Shown here one piece after another: positions 35,548 to 37,893 of a DNA stretch of 37,989 nt; the stretch's first letter is position 1; each line of letters begins with the position of its first letter. The notes under the pieces are model-generated. The model did no database searches. It was not told the origin of the DNA and was given only the letters and a program-made list of their open reading frames with translations. The stretch spans positions 1-37,989 of the forward strand of contig JALSUU010000067.1 in NCBI GenBank assembly GCA_027071075.1. The letters run 5' to 3'. The position numbers were made by a program, and so were the translations under genes. The DNA is from Sulfurimonas sp. (lineage in GTDB: Bacteria > Campylobacterota > Campylobacteria > Campylobacterales > Sulfurimonadaceae).

Positions 35548-36939
35548 ATGCAAAAGCTCTTTGATGAAGTAGGTAGTTTAGATAGAAGATGTTATGAAAA
35601 GTTTGCCCTGAGTGAGGATATTTTGATGGAGCATGCTGCACAAGGTATGGCGGACTTTATAATGAAACACTACACAAAAAAATGCAAGATTGTAGTTATT
35701 TGTGGAAGTGGAAACAATGGTGCAGATGGAATCGCTCTTGCACGACTGCTTCATGGGGAGTATGATGTTGCTATCTTCTATGTAAAAGAACCAAAGTCAG
35801 AGATGGCAAAACTGCAACAAAAAAGAGCACAGCAAGTAGGTGTAAAGACAACTATCTATCTCAATGATTGTGATGTACTTGTCGATGCTGTTTTTGGAAC
35901 GGGTTTTAATGGAAAGTTAGATTATGAGCAGAAGGCAGTGATGCAGGCTGTAAATGATTTGAATGCTTATAAAATTGCTTGTGATATTCCCTCAGGTATG
36001 CGTAGTGATGGTAAGTGTGATGAAAATACCTTTGTAGCAGATGTATCACTCACTATGGGTGCACTCAAAAAGTCTCTTTATAGTGATATGGCTAAGGAGT
36101 ATGTTGGAAAGATTACAGTCTTGGATTTAGGTGTTTCACGGGCTGTTTATGAGGGTGAGACCTCATGGAAACTCTTGGACTTTAAGGATATGAAACTTCC
36201 TCATAGAACACAAAAAGATTGTCATAAGGGGAGTTATGGACACTTGGCACTTGCTTGTGGAGAGAAGAGTGGGGCGAGCATACTGAGTGCATCGGCAGCA
36301 CTTCGTTTTGGAACAGGCTTGGTAACGCTGATTGGCTTTAAAGAGATTGCTGTTCCGTACTCTATCATGTGTGCATCAGCATTACCAGAAAATGCAACAG
36401 CTTTAGCACTAGGAATGGGGCTTGGAAATGAGTTTAGCGAAGTAGAACTGGGTAAAATCTTAGATAATAACCTTCCGCTTATTGCTGATGCAGATATTTT
36501 TTATATGCCAATGTTAGAGGCTATATTGCAGAGAAAAGATGTCATTATTACACCCCATCCAAAAGAGTTTGTGACACTTTTACAACAGCTTAGATTAGCT
36601 GAAATAACAGTTGCCACACTCCAAGCAGATAGATTTCACTATGTAGAGCTTTTTTGTAAGGCATATCCAAATGTTGTTCTGCTTTTAAAAGGTGCAAATG
36701 TCATCATCGCAAAGTATGAGAACTACTATGTCAACCCACATGGTTCTGCTGTCCTAGCAAAAGGTGGAAGTGGGGATGTCCTTAGTGGGCTTATAGGAGC
36801 ACTTTTAGCGCAGGAGTATTCACCACTTGAAGCGACAATCTCTGCATCATTGGCACATACGCAGTTGGCGAAAAACTACACGGACTCTGATTTTTCTCTT
36901 ACGCCTGAGGATTTGATAGCGGGTATTGGTAATCTATAA
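35548..36939 (+). CDS. nnrD: Bifunctional NAD(P)H-hydrate epimerase / ADP-dependent dehydratase
   Basis: This 463-aa enzyme repairs NAD(P)H damaged by hydration. The N-terminal YjeF_N epimerase domain (about 1-205) has GSGNNGADGIALARLL and DAVFGTGFNG. The C-terminal ribokinase-like NnrD domain (about 215-463) has KGSYGHLALACG, the GMGLGNE segment, the HPKEF loop and NPHGSAVLAKGGSGDVLSG, the ADP-site and catalytic Asp motif. This is the standard fused bacterial arrangement (NnrE-NnrD). It is expressed from its own promoter candidate and ends 174 nt before thiG. All key motifs are present. Confidence 0.94.
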   Translation: MQKLFDEVGSLDRRCYEKFALSEDILMEHAAQGMADFIMKHYTKKCKIVVICGSGNNGADGIALARLLHGEYDVAIFYVKEPKSEMAKLQQKRAQQVGVKTTIYLNDCDVLVDAVFGTGFNGKLDYEQKAVMQAVNDLNAYKIACDIPSGMRSDGKCDENTFVADVSLTMGALKKSLYSDMAKEYVGKITVLDLGVSRAVYEGETSWKLLDFKDMKLPHRTQKDCHKGSYGHLALACGEKSGASILSASAALRFGTGLVTLIGFKEIAVPYSIMCASALPENATALALGMGLGNEFSEVELGKILDNNLPLIADADIFYMPMLEAILQRKDVIITPHPKEFVTLLQQLRLAEITVATLQADRFHYVELFCKAYPNVVLLLKGANVIIAKYENYYVNPHGSAVLAKGGSGDVLSGLIGALLAQEYSPLEATISASLAHTQLAKNYTDSDFSLTPEDLIAGIGNL

Positions 36940-36975
36940 GATTGCTTATGCTATAAATCTGATAAATAAATATCA

Positions 36976-37099
36976 TAGTGTTACCGCTTATTAAAAGTGT
37001 ATGCGACAGAGGACAAATCCTCGCTTTGCTCTGAGCCTCTATCGTACACACTTTTAAACGCTAACTTGAAAGCAATTTAGTAATCGGGACGGTAAACTA
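36976..37099 (+). promoter_or_regulatory. Structured leader RNA candidate upstream of thiG
   Basis: The 174-nt spacer between the nnrD stop and thiG folds by eye into a three-way junction. A closing stem pairs TAGT-g-TTACCG (36976-36986, one bulged G) with CGGTAAACTA (37090-37099). Inside it is a long hairpin of 22 possible pairs (36991-37012 with 37036-37057, two mismatches and one G-T) and a short hairpin (37061-37068 with 37073-37080, loop AAAG). The thiG SD (AAGGA, 37101-37105) starts directly after the closing stem. It could be a metabolite-sensing leader, an attenuator-like element or a separate small RNA. It does not show the conserved TPP riboswitch boxes. Confidence 0.55.
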
Positions 37100-37113
37100 C
37101 AAGGAAAAAAAGA

Positions 37114-37893
37114 ATGGATAACATCTTAAAAATTGGAAAATATGAACTTGGTTCAAGACTTATCGTTGGAAGTGGAAAGTATGACTCTTTTGAAACTACA
37201 AAAGAGGCGACTCTTGCATCAGGAAGCGAGTTAATTACAGTTGCTGTAAGACGCTTAAACATTACTGACCCAGACAAGGAAAACCTAAGAGATACTTTTG
37301 CAGGAACAAATGTAAAGTTTCTACCAAACTCTGCTGGGTGTGTTACGGCTGAAGAGGCTATCACTACTTTTAGACTGACTCGTGAGGCTACAGGGATTGA
37401 TTTAATCAAGTTAGAGGTGATTGGAGATACTACAAAAACTCTTTACCCTGATGTTTTAGAGACTATTAAGGCGTGTAAAGTTTTAGCGGATGATGGTTTT
37501 ACTATCATGGCATATACTTCGGATGATCCAATAATGGCAAAAAGACTTGAAGATGCAGGTGCTCACGCTATTATGCCTCTTGCTGCGCCTATTGGAAGTG
37601 GTTTAGGGATTCAAAACCCTTACAATGTTGTCTTTGTAAGAGAAGCTGTAAATCTTCCTATCATTGTTGATGCAGGGATTGGATGTGCTAGTGATGCTGC
37701 TTATGCTATGGAGTTAGGTGCTGATGGTGTTTTAACAAATACTGCTATCGCTCAAGCTCAAAACCCTATGATTATGGCTGAAGCTATGAAACATGCTGTT
37801 ATCTCAGGTCGTATGTCTTACCTAGCTGGAAGGATTCCTAAAAAACCTTATGCTACTGCATCGAGTCCTGTAAATGGAATGATACAGTTTTAA
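37114..37893 (+). CDS. thiG: Thiazole synthase
   Basis: ThiG forms the thiazole ring of thiamine from deoxyxylulose-5-phosphate, dehydroglycine and ThiS-thiocarboxylate. The 259-aa TIM-barrel protein has the Schiff-base lysine in LIKLEVIGD (Lys99), [21 protein letters not shown] for phosphate binding and [26 protein letters not shown] lies about 8 nt before the ATG. No thiS, thiF or thiH is seen next to it in the window. The region before it has a possible structured leader. Confidence 0.97.

Follow-up and report, generated by a model that had tools for sequence, protein, structure and literature searches.

Intergenic palindromes usually conserve their stem. In functional RNAs, G.U pairs are the usual intermediates of stem change, and among DNA structures the mini-hairpin d(GCGAAGC) is extraordinarily stable. 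REP stems are specific to their family, are mostly 6–9 bp long and often contain G.T pairs, and the elements have a GTAG or CGTC end; palindromic repeats with these tags have been reported in epsilonproteobacteria (PMC3733652). The attC sites are conserved at the base, in their R boxes, and variable at the tip (PMC2727003). We compared with these systems a hairpin element located upstream of thiG in a 37,989-nt stretch of Sulfurimonas sp. DNA, referred to here as the window, and followed its relatives through the Campylobacterota.

All features of the locus lie on the forward strand of the window. The element is an 82-position unit at 36984–37065, matched by cmsearch with the R1 covariance model at 70.5 bits (E = 2.7e-14; family alignment A1). 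It consists of the 5' arm of a variable stem (36987–37008, including the 3-nt side of an internal loop beside the tip), a conserved tip GAGG-A-CAAATCCTC-S-C-TNY-G-S-TCTGAG-CCTC (37009–37039), and the 3' arm (37040–37061). Both arms were assigned from pair counts and the fixed-register pairing in 145 copies; the 5' arm has a fixed length and a sequence that differs from copy to copy. Within the tip, GAGG at 37009–37012 pairs with CCTC at 37036–37039, and the two S positions, 37023 and 37029, form a further pair. The gene upstream encodes a bifunctional NAD(P)H-hydrate epimerase/dehydratase (35548–36939; NCBIfam TIGR00196/TIGR00197), and thiG follows downstream (37114–37893; Pfam PF05690, ThiG, 343.5 bits). 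A probable thiG -10 box, TATAAA (36952–36957), was identified by comparison of 30 thiG leaders and occurs in related leaders both with and without the element; a probable Shine-Dalgarno sequence, AAGGA, is read from the sequence at 37101–37105. This copy thus sits between a likely promoter and the Shine-Dalgarno sequence, and any effect on thiG expression would be incidental or secondary. No T-run typical of an intrinsic terminator follows the 3' arm, where CTAACTTGAAAGC stands after 37061, and the other inspected copies likewise have none.

Folding of the thiG leader yields -39 kcal/mol, compared with -26.3 kcal/mol for shuffled sequences (z = -3.6, 0/200). This agrees with the structured leader of the sequence-only reading as far as the long imperfect hairpin directly upstream of thiG is concerned. 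The same reading had enclosed this hairpin in a three-way junction whose closing stem ran straight into the Shine-Dalgarno sequence. The closing stem, TAGT.TTACCG/CGGTAA.ACTA, does appear in the minimum-energy fold of the window sequence alone, with the AAGGA behind it, but the orthologous thiG leaders of G001, G009 and G014, which bear the long hairpin, have neither this stem nor the AAAG-loop hairpin, and there is therefore no conserved three-way junction. Nor did the two competing pairings suggested for a switch persist in the family: GAGGA/TCCTC is broken in glmM-type copies, which read GAGAG and whose outer pair changes in step (GAGA/TCTC), and CAGAG/CTCTG involves a variable column and has no support as a conserved alternative. 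No Rfam family, TPP (RF00059) included, reached its gathering score in the window or at five other loci. Spot_42 was the best sub-threshold Rfam match by E-value, at 21 bits against a cut-off of 80, and is attributed to chance. The robust part of the thiG leader is the hairpin at 36984–37065, and this single hairpin is the real unit.

Most Sulfurimonas thiG leaders do not contain the element by sequence comparison. In other Sulfurimonas species, four thiG leaders (L020, L021, L025 and L033, from G035, G025, G017 and G031) carry a different repeat, roughly GCAAAGCCC...GGCTACGCT..CCGCTAAGGCACTAAAGCTAGG, at the same place, and repeats of at least two families have thus accumulated between these genes. 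The thiG gene of G004 (L037) has an in-frame TGA in a draft genome, which marks either a pseudogene or a sequencing error.

We next consider how widely the element occurs. The source genome holds three copies, in front of thiG, glmM and an autoinducer-2 (AI-2) kinase gene; a BLAST search of this genome with the leader as query gave two more significant places, with the apical part alone in common. When 41 relatives were searched with a tip pattern, 7 of them yielded 19 copies in total (reversed control pattern, 0); in a phylum-wide set of 397 genomes the pattern matched 15, of which three had a single imperfect match each. A scan of 84,980 species gave, among the matches listed, Campylobacterota records throughout, from Sulfurimonas, Sulfurovum, Sulfurospirillum and vent or sediment lineages. 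With the R1 model, 46 of 135 Sulfurimonas genomes contained 1–19 copies, a few of the 46 resting on one weak match, and 89 contained none; matches in the phylum sample came from 13 of 397 genomes and 6 of 68 genera, and occurrence was patchy in three other Campylobacterales families. Plasmid and phage searches gave no match to the element. Two IMG/VR matches are probably due to chance, because they cover the short core only, without the stem. A literature search for the tip sequence returned unrelated papers only. Some copies form inverted pairs about 80–180 bp apart, each with its own stem (L076, L127, L148, L184, L198), and a GNT triloop replaces TNY in several inverted pairs and in other genera. 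The element is thus one of a dispersed, previously uncatalogued family of approximately 80-base hairpins that deep-sea and sediment Campylobacterota carry between genes unrelated to one another.

The genes behind the element include thiG, glmM, the AI-2 kinase gene, transketolase, fdhA, mogA, queD, hemN, truD, ovoA, mqnE, sdhA/frdA, pstS, metH and efp, among others, and have no pathway in common. The sequence-only reading had proposed a new thiamine-pathway leader class, and the element does precede thiG in several Sulfurimonas species. A thiG-specific riboswitch or leader is nevertheless refuted by this gene distribution: the neighbors are unrelated genes, which excludes a thiamine-specific leader, and the near-fixed tip, the free but paired stem and the scatter of copies between unrelated genes do not fit a thiamine sensor. 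Together with the many thiG leaders that have no element and the failure to match TPP, this makes such a leader class barely credible.

Common to the copies are a tip of 31 nt that hardly varies, a small internal loop, and a stem that keeps its length of about 19 bp but is free in sequence. In 145 copies the pairing register is fixed, running from GAGG/CCTC beside the tip through an internal loop of about 3 nt into about 19 bp, and the stem stops sharply at position 27 from the core, with the register shifted by at least one base in roughly a fifth of copies. The tip loop is CAAATCCTC-S-C-TNY-G-S-TCTGAG. Since the copies were collected by their tip, part of its invariance follows from the way they were sought; no selection was made on stems or flanks. 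No clearly conserved sequence was found outside the stem, and the stem base has no conserved letters. Stems are mostly unrelated between copies, also within one genome. The covariation that the sequence-only reading expected of its leader was strong: standard pairs filled 91.8% of paired cells (60% in shuffles), doubly changed, compensated cells numbered 435 against 126.5 expected, and the covariation score was 0.728 against 0.150. The S-S pair in the tip covaries as well (C-G, G-C or A-U). At the glmM locus alone, compared across 12 species, the doubly changed cells numbered 78 against 24.7, and the long stem showed no one-sided wobble. These results indicate that what is conserved is the hairpin geometry, a tip carried by a spacer stem about 19 bp long.

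As short, scattered intergenic palindromes that can occur as inverted pairs, the copies resemble REPs. In contrast to REPs, they have a free stem sequence, a conserved tip and no terminal tag, and whereas many REPs go with RAYT transposases, copy number here is not tracked by Y1 transposases: G030, G062 and G325, with 12–19 copies, have no PF01797 match. Reverse transcriptases do not track the elements either. With attC sites the element shares a sequence-poor, structure-defined palindrome with unpaired bases and internal loops, a frequent position directly behind a stop codon, and a preference for bottom-strand folding, which for the element is indicated indirectly by an excess of A.C over G.T and by bottom-strand stability. 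It differs from attC in its conserved tip, in a base without conserved letters or R'/R'' boxes, and in that G062 and G030 (15–19 copies) have no integron integrase match. Such a match is also missing from G009, and the integrase is present in many element-free genomes. The integron integrase model TIGR02249 scored above its curated cut-off in 17 of the 30 genomes searched, 27 of which are Sulfurimonas. The bottom-strand tip contains S-C-RNA-G-S, which in some copies is exactly GCGAAGC; unlike the free mini-hairpin, this motif forms the end of a structured loop of 22 nt, which itself sits on a long stem. The 5'-leader position, the covariation and the conserved core with a variable stem recall riboswitches and protein-bound leader RNAs, from which the element differs by its lack of sense-strand wobble tolerance, its unrelated genes and its unfixed orientation outside Sulfurimonas.

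Wobble pairs in the stem bear on whether the hairpin is selected as DNA or as RNA. In tRNAs at the same loci, 37 of 380 pairs were G.U. The stem, read on the sense strand, had G.T or T.G in 35 of 2499 cells, a share among non-Watson-Crick cells equal to that expected from independent letters. A.C or C.A, which correspond to wobble pairs on the opposite strand, filled about 106 of the 2499 cells, approximately three times as many as G.T. Among nonredundant copies the counts were 95 A.C and 30 G.T (p = 5e-9), and the asymmetry ran the same way whether copies were sense or antisense. The few polarized cases were mostly A-T to A.C changes and, with small counts, did not support deamination as the source of the A.C excess. 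The bottom strand was the more stable one in 113 of 132 copies with DNA parameters, and 128 of 132 had the bottom-strand triloop C-RNA-G. The stability comparison alone cannot separate DNA from antisense RNA, because RNA parameters favor the bottom strand too, and part of the signal would also be expected from an antisense RNA; no clear peak of bottom-strand promoters was found near the element. Taken together with the orientation data given below, the strand asymmetry suggests selection on a folded DNA strand.

Alternatively, the element could be a cis-acting leader or intercistronic hairpin in mRNA, on which a global regulator or an RNase would act through the sense RNA of many metabolic genes, thiG being one. 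Between codirectional genes of Sulfurimonas, 51 of 52 copies were in sense orientation (51:1), and the element lies between the stop codon and the Shine-Dalgarno sequence, usually 18–60 nt ahead of the start codon. On the sense strand of a subset of copies, a -10 box ends 19–20 nt upstream of the hairpin base (21 copies, about 3 expected); this large peak emerged from looking at all distances on both strands, and although orthologous promoters such as that of glmM supply part of it, it comes from many different genes in several genera. The bias and the spacing suggest a transcript-linked role, and occupation of the same loci in distant species also speaks for the mRNA reading. Sense placement may, however, simply reduce structure in the mRNA, since the sense strand forms the weaker hairpin. 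The near absence of sense-strand G.U, with A.C exceeding G.T, and the lack of a common pathway argue against an mRNA leader, as do copies outside Sulfurimonas, where 23 sense and 17 antisense copies lie between codirectional genes and where antisense and in-place inverted copies retain intact tips and stems. Because of the sense bias and the -10 box spacing we keep an mRNA role as a possible but doubtful explanation. A folded DNA element is favored over an mRNA switch, and the element probably acts as folded DNA.

Active mobility, with most copies being recent insertions of a MITE- or REP-like palindrome, would account for the patchy distribution, for the inverted pairs, and for clean presence/absence at glmM, where the close relatives G003 and G010 have an empty site (left flank 97% identical, about 93 bp missing) and G018 also cleanly lacks the unit. 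The empty site reflects either loss or gain. A few loci whose flanks differ, such as L106 and L181, have stems that resemble each other, which also points in this direction. On the other hand, most stems of one genome bear no relation to each other, the element has no link to plasmids, phages or transposases, and stem arms copied from the insertion site were not seen at thiG or glmM. The glmM copies, gathered by a pattern in which the 3' half was obligatory, have in 12 of 12 species the tip variant GAGA...TCTC, which is a minority variant among other copies, and G062 and G030 share many occupied loci (sdhA/frdA, dedA-like, AI-2 kinase, mqnE and others). Because the tip variant of a given locus recurs in different species even though the stems there have diverged, inheritance appears to be mainly vertical, and we read this as vertical descent with very fast, compensated stem change. 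At the orthologous atpE/tRNA-Leu site, an element is inverted in place in sequence that is 91% identical. On balance, a currently mobile element is improbable.

A search aimed at the hairpin nuclease SbcD turned up a second, Mre11-Rad50-like pair of 372 and 789 aa, with Metallophos and AAA_23/SMC_N domains, in 40 of 135 Sulfurimonas genomes (about 30%; e.g., L287, L289, L292); the pair was read in three genomes and called in the others from a weak SbcD-model score and frame length. It was present in 1 of 46 element-bearing and 39 of 89 element-free genomes (Fisher 6e-8, uncorrected for phylogeny), and the sole genome with both has one weak element copy. As the pair occurs in at least three lineages of the thiG gene tree, the effectively independent cases are few. 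SbcD proper showed no association with the element (Fisher 0.63), and the source genome has SbcD along with its three copies. At least one genome (G031) has both the Mre11-Rad50-like pair and SbcD. Mre11-Rad50 enzymes, including SbcCD, cleave DNA hairpins (PMC6265447, PMC4245961), which makes a causal link between nuclease and element plausible, albeit unproven.

The explanation that we somewhat prefer is that the thiG hairpin belongs to an old family of palindromic DNA elements, located between Campylobacterota genes and passed on mainly by vertical descent. Its recognized tip on the spacer stem would be best formed by the bottom strand, the complement of the mRNA-sense strand; a putative protein would bind the tip in folded single-stranded or cruciform DNA, and stem complementarity would be kept because the DNA has to fold. 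An Mre11-Rad50 nuclease may make such hairpins costly, so that lineages having it would lose them. More tentatively, the family could represent a new class of chromosomal DNA-hairpin sites, in which a protein recognizes the folded bottom-strand tip at up to 10–20 places per genome and nothing is demanded of the stem except that it be a duplex of fixed length; such a system could not coexist with an Mre11-Rad50 hairpin nuclease in the cell.

Strong folding and covariation of a leader are not in themselves evidence of a riboswitch for the gene that follows. This family conserves the tip while the stem drifts under near-strict Watson-Crick pairing, which offers a natural test of hairpin selection at the DNA versus the RNA level, and its pattern of presence and absence suggests a connection of hairpin DNA with the loss of an Mre11-Rad50 nuclease that can be tested directly.
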